A DNA stretch of 39,783 nucleotides, from assembly GCA_029097145.1 (NCBI GenBank), contig JAQXNC010000042.1, forward strand, positions 1-39,783, read 5' to 3'. The translations under genes were made by a program, and so were the position numbers. This DNA is from Bacillota bacterium. GTDB lineage: Bacteria; Bacillota_I; Bacilli_A; Erysipelotrichales; Erysipelotrichaceae. Shown in pieces: positions 30,496 through 36,803 of the stretch (the first letter of the stretch is position 1; the number at the start of each line of letters is the position of its first letter). A model generated the notes under the pieces. The model searched no databases and was not told where the DNA came from. It saw only the letters and a list, made by a program, of their open reading frames with translations.

Positions 30496-31791
30496 TTAAG
30501 CAGGTGATGCTTCTGATTCTTCAGAGACTGGGTTAAGTAACTCAAGAATTTGTTCAGTTGTTAAGCCGACAGATTTTAATTGTTTAACAGACTGTTTGAA
30601 GTTGTTAGAGATATAGTTGATTCGCAGTTCAACAGGTGTTTCTATATCTGCTAAATCTGTAGGACTGAATACTTCGCCAGTAGACAACATGTGATAGATT
30701 GCGACCAGAATCTTTCTGGCAATCGCAATATAAGCACGTTTCTTACCTCTACGCTTTCTGATCTTATCGAATTTGATTGCGTAATAAGGATTATCCTTGC
30801 ATTTGACAGCTGCGTGAGCGATTTCAACCAGACAAGGTTTCAGATAGACACCAGCTTTAGAAATGCGAACAGATTTCTTCTTTCCTGCAGATTCATTCTG
30901 GGAAGGAGAAAGACCAGCCCATTTCGATAAGCGATGATGATTTGAGAATTGGGACATGTCGATTCCAATCTCAGAGATGACTGTGATTGCAGATTTTCTT
31001 GAAACACCAGGGATCGTACAAAGCAGATCAATGTAGTCCTGATAAGGCTCAACCATCTGTTCAATCAATGCATTCATTTTGTCTTTGAGACTTTCAAGAT
31101 ATTCCATGTGTTCTTCAACGATCTTGATTCTTGATTTTTGAACTGAGTTCAGATCAGTACCATAAGCGGCTTCAAGGATATCTTCTTTTGAAGCTTTGCA
31201 TCGTCCATGAATTTTGGAAAGAATGTCTTCGTCAGAATAAGAATCATTTGATAAAATGAGGTTGATGATAGAGGAAGCAGATTTGCCAAAAACATCGGAG
31301 AAAACCAGATCAACTTTACAGTTGCCTACAGTCAGAGCGTTTTGGTAACGATTCTTCTCTGAAGAAGTCATGCAGACAATCTTGTAAAGATAACGAGTGA
31401 GTTCTCTAAGAACACGAAAATCTTTGGAAGGAATGAAACTGCTTCTAACAATGCCAAGTTTAAAAAGATCAGCGATCCATTTGGCATCTTTCTTGTCATC
31501 TTTCTCGCCTTTAATGGCTCTGACCCATTTCGGATTGGCAACGACGACATTGGAGATGTGATTCTCCAATGCATTGTATACAGGGATATAATACTTGCCG
31601 GTACTCTCCATGCATACATTGTGGCAGTCATTTGAAATCAGCCAATCACGGAATTGAATCAAAGAGTTCTGATAAGTCGAGAATCTTTTACGGATGTATT
31701 TGGGTGTGATGGAAGTAGAGTCGCAGATGACAGCGACGATAAAAGATTTGTGCACATCGACACCACAAGCTTTTTGATAGATAACTTGCAT
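30496..31791 (-). CDS. IS110-family transposase (DEDD N-terminal, Transposase_20 C-terminal)
   Basis: ACGVDVHKSFIVAVICDST, VCMESTGKYYIPVYNAL, IPGVSRKSAITVISEIGIDMSQF, RLSKWAGLSPSQNESAGKKKSVRISKAGVYLKP; ATG at 31791 has AGGAG RBS. Confidence 0.95.
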   Translation of the reverse strand: MQVIYQKACGVDVHKSFIVAVICDSTSITPKYIRKRFSTYQNSLIQFRDWLISNDCHNVCMESTGKYYIPVYNALENHISNVVVANPKWVRAIKGEKDDKKDAKWIADLFKLGIVRSSFIPSKDFRVLRELTRYLYKIVCMTSSEKNRYQNALTVGNCKVDLVFSDVFGKSASSIINLILSNDSYSDEDILSKIHGRCKASKEDILEAAYGTDLNSVQKSRIKIVEEHMEYLESLKDKMNALIEQMVEPYQDYIDLLCTIPGVSRKSAITVISEIGIDMSQFSNHHRLSKWAGLSPSQNESAGKKKSVRISKAGVYLKPCLVEIAHAAVKCKDNPYYAIKFDKIRKRRGKKRAYIAIARKILVAIYHMLSTGEVFSPTDLADIETPVELRINYISNNFKQSVKQLKSVGLTTEQILELLNPVSEESEASPA

Positions 31792-31798
31792 AAATAAA

Positions 31799-32007
31799 AG
31801 CTCCTTTCTATGGTGAAGGAGCTGCAGTGACTGTACCATCAACACTAATGAAGATGATTAGTCAATGATTAATCTGCTGTCTTAAAAGAACCACTCAGGT
31901 GTGCTTGAAACGATGATACTTGCACTGGTTATTATGCTGCTTTGAACTGAATGAGATGCAGTAATCTGCAACTCACCTCCACGTGCTTTGTAGTGTGAGC
32001 TCCTTCA
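31799..32007 (-). ncRNA. Candidate bridge RNA / structured leader of the IS110 element
   Basis: 10-bp terminal inverted arms (31998-32007/31814-31823); 5' hairpin GUGAGUUGCAG-AUUA-CUGCAUCUCAU (31951-31976); stem-loop AACCA+GUGC...GCAC+UGGUU (31889-31930); stem-loop ACUAAU-CAUCUUC-AUUAGU (31844-31862). Confidence 0.55.
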
Positions 32008-32090
32008 GGTACAACATAAAAGAAAAAAAATAAGAAATCAAGGCATTTTCATACCTATGTGTGCCTTGTAGAAAGGAATGTTTGGTTATT

Positions 32091-32147
32091 ATGATCAGCG
32101 TAGGTGTTGACGTTTCAAAGGGCAATAATACAATCAAGTTCGAATAA
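32091..32147 (+). pseudogene. Truncated N-terminus of a second IS110-family transposase
   Basis: ATG ATC AGC GTA GGT GTT GAC GTT TCA AAG GGC AAT AAT ACA ATC AAG TTC GAA TAA = MISVGVDVSKGNNTIKFE*; VGVDVSKG is the typical DEDD start. Confidence 0.75.
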
Positions 32148-32153
32148 AAAGAT

Positions 32154-32178
32154 AAAAAACGAGACGATTATCGTTTTT
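32154..32178. terminator. Terminator-like hairpin
   Basis: AAAAACGA-GACGATTA-TCGTTTTT. Confidence 0.6.
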
Positions 32179-32186
32179 CATACATA

Positions 32187-32220
32187 GGATTTCCTTGCGT
32201 AGGGAATCCTCTTTTCTTTT
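32187..32220 (+). terminator. Terminator
   Basis: AGGATTTCCTTGCGTAGGGAATCCTCTTTTCTTTT. Confidence 0.7.
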
Positions 32221-32224
32221 GGTT

Positions 32225-32250
32225 AAAAACCTGATGATCAATTCATCAGG
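32225..32250 (-). terminator. Terminator of the AlbA_2 regulator gene
   Basis: Minus strand CCTGATGAATTGATCATCAGGTTTTTAA. Confidence 0.75.
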
Positions 32251-32253
32251 TAA

Positions 32254-33582
32254 TCATTTTATGACTTTCCAATAGCCATTTTTGTTTGAACCAACTCTTT
32301 CGATAAATCCCTTTTCTTTTAGATTGGAAAAATATCTTTGCACACTTCTAAATGGAATATTTAATTCTTCGCTCATACTTTTAGCTGAGAGATAAGGAGA
32401 CTCTTCTAACTTTGATAAGATCAAGTTTTCTTTTGGGTCAAGCTCTTCTCTATTTACGCCACTTATTGCGCCACTTATTGCGCCATGATTTAACAACACT
32501 TCTTCATTAAAAGGAATAATAACTCTAAGATAGCTTTCGCTGATTTCAAATGCATCCATACCATACTTTTCGACAATAGTAGGAATTCCGTGACCAGTAT
32601 GTTCAACTATACCCAGTCTTGCAAAAATGTTCATTAACTGTTCATTTCTTGGTTTGCTAACGCCCTTAAAGAATTCTTCCTTTGTCAATCCATTTGGCAA
32701 GCCTCCATGAGAAGTAATTTCTAGTCTATCATCGAAGAAAGCTACTTGGGGATCTGTTACTCTGTAGTCGTTATGAATAATTGCGTTAACCAAGGCTTCA
32801 TTAACAGCATCCATGTCATAAAGATATATATCTTTCCGTGGACGTGGATTCGTAATCGTTTTACAAATATTTTCCAGTTTCAGTCTTTCCTTCATCTTTT
32901 CATAAGCAAGAATGATACACTGACTTCCATAATCGCTTCTTTCTGAAAATGATGCTTTATTCTTTCCTTTAAACTTTGCAAAAATAAATGATAATGAGTT
33001 AGAATCAGCTAACAACTCTGCTAAGTAGTTATATGCACCATCGTTGGTCCTTAATTTAAAGTTGCTTTCAAAAGAGCTTTCTTCAATGTGATAACCATTT
33101 TCTAGAAGCAGCATTTTAAACTTGGTTAATGTGATATTTTGAAAATAAGATTCTCGTTTGATCATTGTATCAAAATTTGATAGTCCTGATTCGAATCTCT
33201 TTTTAATCATTTCCAAAGTCATAGATTTGCAGGTTGTTCCAATACGATAGTGACATCCGTTAGATGAGAAGCCATATTTTTTAATACAATAAAGGGAAGA
33301 ATATCCTTTTTTGATAGATATTTTGACAACTATTTTTTCTTCGATAAATTCAACTTCAGGACGCACGCAATCTATAGCATTTGGCTCAATTTGATCAGAA
33401 ATAATATCAGAAATACATCTTAATAGATTATCTAACTGATTAACACCGACTACATTACCACTATCATTAATTCCAATATAAATAGTTCCTCCTTCGGTGT
33501 TAAGAAATGATTCAATTTCTTTGGGGAGTGATTCACTTAGTTTTTCTTTAAATTCTATTTTGTCTGTTTCCTTGAATAACAT
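32254..33582 (-). CDS. AlbA_2 (Schlafen-type) / HATPase_c_4 / winged-HTH putative transcriptional regulator
   Basis: EFKEKLSESLPKEIESFLNTEGGTIYIGINDSGNVVGV (AlbA_2), EALVNAIIHNDYRV...ITSHGGLPNGLTKEEF (GHKL-like), C-terminal wHTH (SVQRYFSNLKEKGFIERVGSNKNGYWKVI); ATG at 33582 has GAGGTG RBS. Confidence 0.88.
   Translation of the reverse strand: MLFKETDKIEFKEKLSESLPKEIESFLNTEGGTIYIGINDSGNVVGVNQLDNLLRCISDIISDQIEPNAIDCVRPEVEFIEEKIVVKISIKKGYSSLYCIKKYGFSSNGCHYRIGTTCKSMTLEMIKKRFESGLSNFDTMIKRESYFQNITLTKFKMLLLENGYHIEESSFESNFKLRTNDGAYNYLAELLADSNSLSFIFAKFKGKNKASFSERSDYGSQCIILAYEKMKERLKLENICKTITNPRPRKDIYLYDMDAVNEALVNAIIHNDYRVTDPQVAFFDDRLEITSHGGLPNGLTKEEFFKGVSKPRNEQLMNIFARLGIVEHTGHGIPTIVEKYGMDAFEISESYLRVIIPFNEEVLLNHGAISGAISGVNREELDPKENLILSKLEESPYLSAKSMSEELNIPFRSVQRYFSNLKEKGFIERVGSNKNGYWKVIK
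32451..32486 (-). repeat. 12-bp tandem repeat in coding sequence (encodes GAISGAISGVN)
   Basis: TATTTACGCCAC TTATTGCGCCAC TTATTGCGCCAT on plus strand. Confidence 0.9.
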
Positions 33583-33612
33583 CTGCATCACCTCGCAAAA
33601 CTATAATAACAT

Positions 33613-33665
33613 TTATTACGTCAAAAATACAGTTTATTGCGCCATTATTACGCCATTATTACGCT
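33613..33665 (-). promoter_or_regulatory. Phased direct-repeat array (TTATTRCGYY x4) in the promoter region of the AlbA_2 regulator
   Basis: Copies at 33613-33622, 33634-33643, 33645-33654, 33656-33665; spacings 21, 11, 11 bp. Confidence 0.8.
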
Positions 33666-33792
33666 TAATTTATAGTTATAGGATATAGAAAAACTTTCCC
33701 ATAACCACCAGCTAGTAGTGGATATGTAAAGGAATATTTTGTTTTTTGTTAGATAGATAAATTAGTGTTTATCCTTCTCTTTAAAGTGTTCA

Positions 33793-35073
33793 TTAATCTC
33801 TCAAACAACCTAGTGGAATAACAAAAACACCATCCTCTCGCCTATAACCATACTGACTGCCTGTGATTACCATTTTTAGATCAGGTAATCTTAACGGTGT
33901 TTGAGTTTCCGTTTTGTTATGCTCTTTAATTAGGCTTTCTATTTTACATAAGTGTTTTGCTCCTTCATCAACCTCGCTCTGTCCAAGCTTTATTTCAATA
34001 AGAGCATATCTTCCGTCGTCAAGATGCAGTACGGCATCTGCTTCTAGACCGTATCTGTCATGGTAGTAGGAGACGGTTCCATTGCTCGAAGACGAGTATA
34101 TCTTAAGGTCCCTGATACATAGGGATTCAAAAAGAAAACCGAGAGTTTTGTAGTCGTTCGCAAAGTATTCAGGTGAAACTCCAAGTGCAGCCGCTGCAAT
34201 TGATGGATCGATAACGTTCCTTTTCTTGGAGGAACGGATGGCAGTCTTGGAACGTATAGAAGGGCACCATGCATCTACATCTTCTACGATCATCAGTTTC
34301 TCAAGAGCAGAAATATATTCGTAATATGTCGGCTTCGACATTTCACATGTTGAAACGATATCTCCAAAAATGGCTTTGGTTTCTGTCATGGTACAGAGGT
34401 TCCTTGAATAGGATCTGAGCAACGTTCTGGCCCAGCGGGGGTTTCTCTTTACATGATCAATATTTGAAATATCGATTTCACATGTCTGGCTGAACAGATC
34501 CTTGGCGATTGCAAGCTTCGCTCTGTCTGTCTGAGCTTTAAGGCTTCCTGGCCATCCGCCTCTGCATATTGCAAACTTAATTCTATCAATTGTCAGGTCT
34601 GAACGACATCCGTTAAATGATTCAGGGTTATTAAACAGTGCATGCAAAGAAACAGAACCGTTTGATTCACCGCTTTCAAAAAGGCTCATGGGATACATCT
34701 TCATCCTTGATATTCTGAGTGTGCCAGTATGAGGCGTATCTGCTGCTGAACTTGAACCTGTCAGAATATACTGGCCAACTTCGCCTGAGTCATCAACATC
34801 CTTTCGAATTGCACCCCAGATTTTTGGCGCATCTTGCCACTCATCAAAAAGACGAGGTTTGTCTCCAATCAGCAAATCAGATGGATGCGTATTGGCAATC
34901 AAGAGGTAGTTTTCTCTTTCGTCTTCATCCTGGAATTCAACATAGCTTTTTGCCTGTTGCTTGGTAGTTGTTGTTTTCCCACATCCTTTTGGACCGACAA
35001 TCAGTGCAGCTCCAAAGGCTTCCAGTTTTAACTTCAGCAGTTCATCAGAGATCCTTGGTTTATAGTTTTTCAT
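33793..35073 (-). CDS. AAA ATPase with DUF4143 domain (AAA_14)
   Basis: VGPKGCGKTTT Walker A, PRLFDEWQDAP Walker B, YILTGSSSA; C-terminal GLEADAVLHLDDGRYALIEIKLG. Confidence 0.9.
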   Translation of the reverse strand: MKNYKPRISDELLKLKLEAFGAALIVGPKGCGKTTTTKQQAKSYVEFQDEDERENYLLIANTHPSDLLIGDKPRLFDEWQDAPKIWGAIRKDVDDSGEVGQYILTGSSSAADTPHTGTLRISRMKMYPMSLFESGESNGSVSLHALFNNPESFNGCRSDLTIDRIKFAICRGGWPGSLKAQTDRAKLAIAKDLFSQTCEIDISNIDHVKRNPRWARTLLRSYSRNLCTMTETKAIFGDIVSTCEMSKPTYYEYISALEKLMIVEDVDAWCPSIRSKTAIRSSKKRNVIDPSIAAAALGVSPEYFANDYKTLGFLFESLCIRDLKIYSSSSNGTVSYYHDRYGLEADAVLHLDDGRYALIEIKLGQSEVDEGAKHLCKIESLIKEHNKTETQTPLRLPDLKMVITGSQYGYRREDGVFVIPLGCLRD

Positions 35074-35715: not shown

Positions 35716-35756
35716 AAATGAATATAATATAATGGAAAGATATGGAGGCTAAGGGA

Positions 35757-36803
35757 ATGAGAATTTTTAATTACTCAGCTATCAAGAATCAGAAATGGGA
35801 TTCTGAGATCCTTGGGCTTATTGCTGCTATCTATAAAGAGGCTGGTAAGCAGGAGCTTTATCTGAAACAGCGCCCGGACGAATTGGAGAAATTGGTTGAA
35901 ATCGCAAAGATTCAGAGTACAGAGGCATCCAATGCGATTGAAGGGATTGTTACCACCAATACGCGAATCCGGCAGCTGGTTGAGGAAAAAACCACGCCAA
36001 GAAACCGGGACGAGTTGGAAATTGCAGGATATCGAGATGTGCTTTCTATTATTCACGAAAGCTACGATGCCATTCCTCTGTCAAGGAACTATATCCTGCA
36101 GCTTCATAAGATTATGTACAGCTATATGAATAACCCAATGGCTGGACAGACGAAAAATGTACAGAATTATATCAGTGCGACTTTCCCTGGTGGTCATACC
36201 GAAATACTTTTCACGCCACTGGCTCCGTTCGAGACGCCGGAAGCTCTGGATCGGATCTGTGAGGAGTACAACAAGGTGATCGGTAACATGGAATTGGAGC
36301 CCTTAATTGCGATTCCGATCTTCATTCACGATTTCCTGTGCATTCATCCGTTTAACGACGGTAATGGAAGAATGAGCCGCTTGCTGACAACACTGCTTTT
36401 ATATCGCAGCGGATTCTATGTTGGAAAATATATCTCCCTGGAGGCAAAGATCGCGAAAAACAAGGATTTGTATTATGATACACTGAACCGTTCACAGCAT
36501 GGCTGGCATGAAGGAACCGAGGATGCCGTTCCGTTTATAAAATATCTGTTGGGTACCATTCTGGCTGCGTATAAAGACTTTGGGGACAGATTTGCCATCG
36601 TGGAAGAGAAACTTCCTGCCGTTGATATGGTTCGCAAGGCTGTTCTGAATAAAATCGGTCGTTTCACGAAGCAGGATATCAGAGAGCAGTGTCCTTCGCT
36701 GAGCCTTAGTTCTGTAGAGAGTGCGCTGCGAAAAATGGTGGCATCCGGTGAACTGAAACGTGAAGGAGCCGGAAAATCGACCTGCTATATTCGCTTGAAA
36801 TAG
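35757..36803 (+). CDS. Fic family protein (probable AMPylase, class II auto-inhibited)
   Basis: HPFNDGNGRMSR Fic motif; SNAIEG inhibitory-helix motif; C-terminal HTH; start at 35757 after GGAGG RBS. Confidence 0.93.
   Translation: MRIFNYSAIKNQKWDSEILGLIAAIYKEAGKQELYLKQRPDELEKLVEIAKIQSTEASNAIEGIVTTNTRIRQLVEEKTTPRNRDELEIAGYRDVLSIIHESYDAIPLSRNYILQLHKIMYSYMNNPMAGQTKNVQNYISATFPGGHTEILFTPLAPFETPEALDRICEEYNKVIGNMELEPLIAIPIFIHDFLCIHPFNDGNGRMSRLLTTLLLYRSGFYVGKYISLEAKIAKNKDLYYDTLNRSQHGWHEGTEDAVPFIKYLLGTILAAYKDFGDRFAIVEEKLPAVDMVRKAVLNKIGRFTKQDIREQCPSLSLSSVESALRKMVASGELKREGAGKSTCYIRLK

Follow-up and report, generated by a model that had tools for sequence, protein, structure and literature searches.

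A predicted DNA-binding regulator carries one short DNA motif in two places, as a tandem array over its own promoter and as a second array inside its own coding sequence. Among its relatives, this sharing recurs with different motifs, does not extend beyond the promoter region, and is accompanied by constraint on the linker at the level of DNA. From these patterns, we infer that the regulator's own winged helix binds both arrays, that regulation is negative, and that the protein oligomerizes and bridges them. The winged helix would recognize a 10- to 12-bp site, and the site array overlying the promoter would allow the regulator to repress its own transcription. The second array of matching sites in cis, ∼1.16 kb downstream of the promoter array and in frame within the disordered linker that precedes the winged helix, would act as an auxiliary operator. 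A probably oligomeric regulator could then bridge or fill both arrays and tighten the feedback, either through a loop or through an elongation block. Taken as a whole, we consider this account of winged-helix autorepression, with the linker array as a cis auxiliary operator, a reasonably probable one. The explanations weighed here overlap in part, and the likelihoods we give them need not total one.

Every coordinate of the seven 10-mers listed in the initial annotation was confirmed on the plus strand of the window, the whole 39,783-nucleotide stretch analyzed (Table 1). The regulator lies on the minus strand, and in gene sense, the unit reads GGCGYAATAA and codes for GAIS. It occurs in three to four copies in the promoter array, at start-to-start intervals of 11, 11, and 21 bp, and in two to three copies in the linker array. 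With at most one mismatch allowed, its plus-strand form TTATTRCGCC occurs 11 times in the window vs. 2.9 times expected, a count reached in 0 of 100 shuffles. A pattern search of the 1.65-Mb assembly (87% complete; control patterns gave 0 matches) found exactly two instances of GGCGYAATAA-N(1-14)-GGCGYAATAA, namely the regulator promoter and the regulator linker. When the linker was compared with the promoter of its own gene, ∼1% of unrelated promoters did as well as the best match (p = 0.011), and none of the other segments within the ORF did (p = 0.021, which is the floor).

Both arrays are kept in the orthologues L010 and L011, which are 81% identical to the window regulator. At the place of the core promoter, these two genes have TTGTAT-17-TATAAT, with one array copy in the spacer and the rest just upstream, as a repressor site would be expected to sit. 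The core promoter presumed for the window gene was not among the promoters listed by a consensus promoter scan. The promoter array is conserved in L008, L010, L011, and L012. Because L012 (∼71–73% identical) keeps the promoter array alone (GGCGTAATAA, GGCGTAATAA, GGCGCAATAA), with an unrelated linker that has no repeats, the promoter array is the steadier of the two and the linker array is accessory. The window genome's own paralogue, L003 on contig C96, has a TQDGTQDGTQD linker, as does L095, and neither has a counterpart of it in the upstream region.

The regulator has both the SLFN_AlbA_2 and HATPase_c_4 Pfam domains and a C-terminal winged helix, and it is a COG2865-like member of this family. 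We chose the ATG as its probable start because a Shine–Dalgarno-like GAGG lies upstream. In the AlphaFold2 model (mean pLDDT 81, with the domains mostly confident), residues 368–376, which form the repeat peptide, are disordered (pLDDT < 50) and lie immediately N-terminal to the winged helix, so that a disordered linker tethers it. A fold search with this model related the winged helix to the FabT, MarR, and ArsR folds; Pfam helix–turn–helix matches were weak and slightly below cutoffs, and the nearest solved structure is 3lmm (DIP2311, uncharacterized). The gene is flanked by IS110 transposase and DUF4143 ATPase genes, with srp54, rpsP, a KH-domain gene, and rimM upstream and a Fic gene farther out. 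Rfam gave zero matches over 31800–34000, which removed a structured RNA at the regulator from consideration.

Table 1. Features of the regulator locus (window coordinates) and promoter/linker motifs shared within individual homologues
Feature	Position	Strand	Details
Regulator CDS	32254..33582	(-)	442 aa; SLFN_AlbA_2 + HATPase_c_4 + C-terminal winged helix
Regulator start and stop	probable ATG 33580-33582; stop 32254-32256	(-)	ORF listing instead gives GTG at 33591
SLFN_AlbA_2 domain	33220..33570	(-)	Pfam PF04326, 71.4 bits, exceeds gathering cutoff of 25.3
HATPase_c_4 domain	32563..32754	(-)	Pfam PF13749, 65.6 bits, exceeds gathering cutoff of 26
C-terminal winged helix, presumed repeat reader	32263..32436	(-)	AlphaFold2 residues 383-440, high pLDDT
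Promoter array	33613..33665	(-)	Gene sense: AGCGTAATAA 33656, GGCGTAATAA 33645, GGCGCAATAA 33634, GACGTAATAA 33613; plus strand: TTATTACGTC 33613, TTATTGCGCC 33634, TTATTACGCC 33645, TTATTACGCT 33656
Linker array	32451..32484	(-)	Gene sense: GGCGCAATAAGT GGCGCAATAAGT GGCGTAAATA, 12-bp period, encodes GAISGAISGVN; plus strand: TATTTACGCC 32451, TTATTGCGCC 32463 and 32475
Presumed core promoter	33603..33632	(-)	CTGTAT-18-TATTAT, 33613 copy inside spacer; inferred from orthologues L010/L011
IS110-type transposase	30496-31845	(-)	Separates regulator from srp54-rpsP-rimM housekeeping genes
AAA_14/DUF4143 ATPase	33793-35073	(-)	Adjoins regulator; strongly matches PADLOC candidate defense family PDC-S01
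Terminator-like stem-loops	32186-32251	(+)	Two, directly 3' of regulator gene, plus-strand reading
Fic gene	35742-36803	(+)	Tandem linker repeats absent
L059 shared motif			AATGTCCGTTTGAATGTCCGTTT, 23/23
L064 shared motif			CTGTAAGTGATACTGTAAGT, 20/20
L101 shared motif			AATAAATCGCCAAATAAAA, 19/19
L154/L156 shared motif			ATAAATGACCCAATAAA, 17/17
L094 shared motif			ATTTATTTGGTCAT, 14/14; inverted pair around -10 region
L090 shared motif			TGACTCGATAAATG, 14/14; at start codon
L013 shared motif			TTAGGTAATAAAG, 13/13
L229 shared motif			TGTCGGTTTGAAT, 13/13
L129 shared motif			TTGGTAATAAAG, 12/12

We collected 198 full-length homologues and compared the linker DNA of the 190 with enough upstream sequence, ungapped and on both strands, with their own upstream 200 bp and with those of unrelated homologues; start codons were assigned by rule, and some upstream regions may be misplaced. 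Tandem DNA repeats were present in the linkers of 75 of the 190, mostly at 12 bp and also at 21, 24, and 27 bp, in 2 to about 10 copies. Among these 75, 24 matched their own promoter at p ≤ 0.05 (3.8 expected). At a score of ≥14, there were 16 tandem-linker genes in 12 sequence clusters vs. a mean of 1.03 clusters expected (2000 promoter permutations; maximum of 5 clusters) and 6 non-tandem genes in 4 clusters vs. 0.42 expected; these counts retain the above-threshold genes among L225, L189, L198, L179, L242, and L081, which had lowish p values and unconvincing alignments (A+T-rich, short, or diffuse). When tandem linkers were compared with the −400..−200 and −600..−400 regions and with the 3′ flank, 1, 0, and 1 genes matched, respectively, and the sharing of linker DNA is thus confined to the promoter region (upstream −203..0). 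Chance similarity was ruled out for the matching subset by the permutation and position controls. Promoter repeats are also a trait of the family: direct repeats were significant upstream of 81 of the 190 genes vs. in 9 of 190 ORF-interior control windows.

The shared motifs vary from gene to gene (for example, TGTCGGT, ATGTCACCAA, TGACCCAATAAA, and TTTTCTGGTTG; Table 1), and the homologues' promoter copies are located around the presumed core promoter, where repressor sites would be. In the L015–L030 group, promoter arrays (ATTTATAGTGACATTTATAGTGAC) are present, and linker copies are absent. Because these arrays resemble, on the opposite strand, the NVTI and DTIN linkers found in L034 and in a Fic protein, L053, promoters and linkers seem to draw on a common stock of sites. 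The promoter of L030 itself has five to six repeats of TTTATAGTGACA with an exact 12-bp period, and its linker has no copy.

The initial annotation had proposed to test whether linker repeats resemble the repeats upstream of the same gene and had named homologues without such resemblance as evidence against its reading. Own-promoter matches did exceed those to unrelated promoters, but about 60% of the 75 tandem linkers examined had no such match and are homologues of that kind; sharing is frequent, and a universal rule is rejected. These linkers, among them those of L143 and L118, where genome searches found the unit within the linker alone and no external copy, are what one would expect if the array were simply a flexible tetrapeptide linker grown by slippage and its likeness to the promoter were due to chance. 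For the matching set, this explanation is contradicted by the permutation, position, and orientation controls, and we regard it as very unlikely. Several observations also weigh against the auxiliary-operator account: the tandem linkers without an own-promoter match, the promoter arrays that lack linker counterparts in L012 and the L015–L030 group, and the weak correlation between motif similarity and winged-helix similarity in distant genes (Mantel r = 0.095), which we dropped as support. Non-matching genes tended to have a close upstream gene in an operon-like arrangement (2 of 13 matching vs. 28 of 68), a trend that was not significant (Fisher p = 0.12) and that we did not adopt as the cause of non-matching. 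One linker without a match to its own upstream region, GEKLGEKLGE in L292 on an Arcobacter plasmid, belongs to a gene whose operon also contains DUF87, SLATT, and type I restriction genes.

The orientation and reading frame of the linker copies point to constraint on DNA. In L168, L169, and L170, TTTTCTGGTTG or a closely similar sequence is repeated every 11 bp in the promoter, and its reverse complement, ACAACCAGAAAA, lies in the linker; the linkers of L028 and L158 also match their promoters in reverse, less exactly. In L167, ATGTCACCAA occurs three times at 10 bp in the promoter and ATGTCACCAAATGTCACCAA also at 10 bp in the linker, and because of this spacing, the two linker copies are read in different frames. 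The linker of L165 has an inverted pair, TTCTTGCTCA and TGAGCAAGAA, that matches the promoter site without forming a peptide repeat. Across linkers, A+T-rich AATAA-type cores are read in two main frames; the third would often yield a stop. Codon usage adds to these observations. Between the window gene and its 81% identical orthologue L010 (the L001/L010 pair), operator-like codons were kept in 13 of 13 cases vs. 55% elsewhere. Over seven pairs of relatives, two of which share L168, such codons were kept more often than other codons for conserved residues (pooled Mantel–Haenszel z = 5.8, p = 4e-9), a signal weakened somewhat by homogenization of tandem copies and by pairs that are not wholly independent. 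Opposite orientation, differing frames, the inverted pair, and excess codon conservation together indicate that the linker arrays are under DNA-level constraint. The earlier proposal that the DNA sequence rather than the peptide is conserved, with one motif in both arrays, is supported by the family test and by the copies in opposite orientation and different frames.

A pattern of this kind could also reflect copying rather than function, with the array working in the promoter only and the linker tolerating copied segments; short repeats would allow slippage, template switching, or gene conversion between the two. The initial annotation had raised recombination between promoter and gene as an alternative, and it drew some support from L056 (30/34), L028 (27/34), and L158 (26/33), where a match longer than the unit suggests that a segment of one region was copied into the other. 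Moreover, the promoter copies of L059 and L064 show the linker's 12-bp period, the linker copies of L167 show the promoter's 10-bp period, and L012 has lost its linker array with the promoter array retained. However, several pairs keep the array codons better than the remaining gene, the differing periods in the window (promoter, 11 bp; linker, 12 bp) do not fit a simple block copy, and the 12 or more clusters in which sharing arose differ in motif. We view copying without function as possible but doubtful.

Some Fic proteins have a C-terminal winged helix and tetrapeptide linkers of the same kind as the regulator's, but a different catalytic domain. We sampled 26 winged-helix Fic genes with similar linkers and found clear promoter/linker matches in three: L265 (ACTTGTACGGTA; an inverted repeat surrounds the −10 region of its promoter), L267 (21/23), and L271 (TGACGGAGTAA); most had none. 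Because these three match, the trait seems to track the linker and winged helix rather than the AlbA_2 core. In the window's own Fic protein, the segment from residue ∼250 to the end scored 15.1 when compared with the 200 bp upstream of the gene, a value from a long segment uncontrolled for length.

A further idea, which we hold only tentatively and consider rather unlikely, is that the winged-helix segment forms a self-templating specificity cassette that carries its operator array and can exchange it with the promoter by repeat-mediated copying. If so, DNA-binding specificity and autoregulatory operators would change together, which would account for motifs that are so different between relatives yet common within a gene.

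The linker array might instead titrate the regulator, as a decoy for free protein present in proportion to gene copy number; without bridging, it would set the feedback point or measure gene dosage. The wide variation in linker copy number, from 2 to about 10, would suit such a role, as would the several paralogues that are common within one genome among the homologues. Nevertheless, the handful of additional sites that each gene provides would seem insufficient unless the regulator is very scarce, and we judge titration improbable.

For autorepression with an auxiliary operator in the linker, the closest precedent is the rep genes of RepA_N plasmids. In RepA_N initiators, such as pSK41 rep, the DNA sites that the initiator binds sit in the middle of rep and code for an inter-domain linker that is not needed as protein (PMC5703833). 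The regulator resembles them in its putative gene-internal sites encoding a linker and in its winged-helix DNA-binding domain. However, the RepA_N sites are a replication origin and the RepA_N DNA-binding domain is N-terminal, whereas the regulator's array stands also in its own promoter, its winged helix is C-terminal, and its gene is chromosomal. No RepA_N or other replication domain was matched by Pfam in the window regulator, and this absence, with the chromosomal housekeeping context, rules out a reading of the arrays as replication iterons. Iteron plasmids such as pSK639 have tandem Rep sites, as 22-bp repeats, in the rep promoter (PMC5703833). They share with the regulator tandem direct repeats over the gene's own promoter and presumed autoregulation, but their repeats are origins, and copies in a coding linker are not described there (PMC5703833).

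Auxiliary operators within coding sequences are familiar from lac O2 in lacZ and gal OI in galE. As proposed for the regulator, a second operator within a transcribed gene matches the promoter operator, but those operators sit in a target gene rather than in the regulator's own linker and are not in-frame tandem peptide repeats. The literature searched contained no account of operator arrays in the linkers of AlbA_2, HATPase_c_4, or Fic proteins, weak evidence given that few subscription journals were covered.

AlbA_2 and Fic proteins commonly have tetrapeptide-repeat linkers before their winged helices, and that literature offers no explanation for them. A sizeable fraction of the relatives share repeats between linker and promoter, with sequences quite unlike one another, and the analysis therefore suggests that linkers of this common type often amount to DNA-binding sites concealed within a gene. 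If operator arrays are frequent among such linkers, the coding sequence of an uncharacterized regulator would reveal its operator, and the family would offer a natural series on the joint change in specificity of a DNA-binding domain and its sites. The overlap of coding and regulatory information also becomes directly testable through synonymous recoding.

A scan of viral contigs for close relatives gave no match, and we set aside viral spread. Immediately upstream of L139 and L140, inspection by eye showed an apparent tRNA gene 3′ end, an arrangement reminiscent of mobile-element integration sites. In-frame TGA codons occur in several homologues whose genomes are small, among them L142, L148, L149, L163, and L171, as if TGA were read as Trp.
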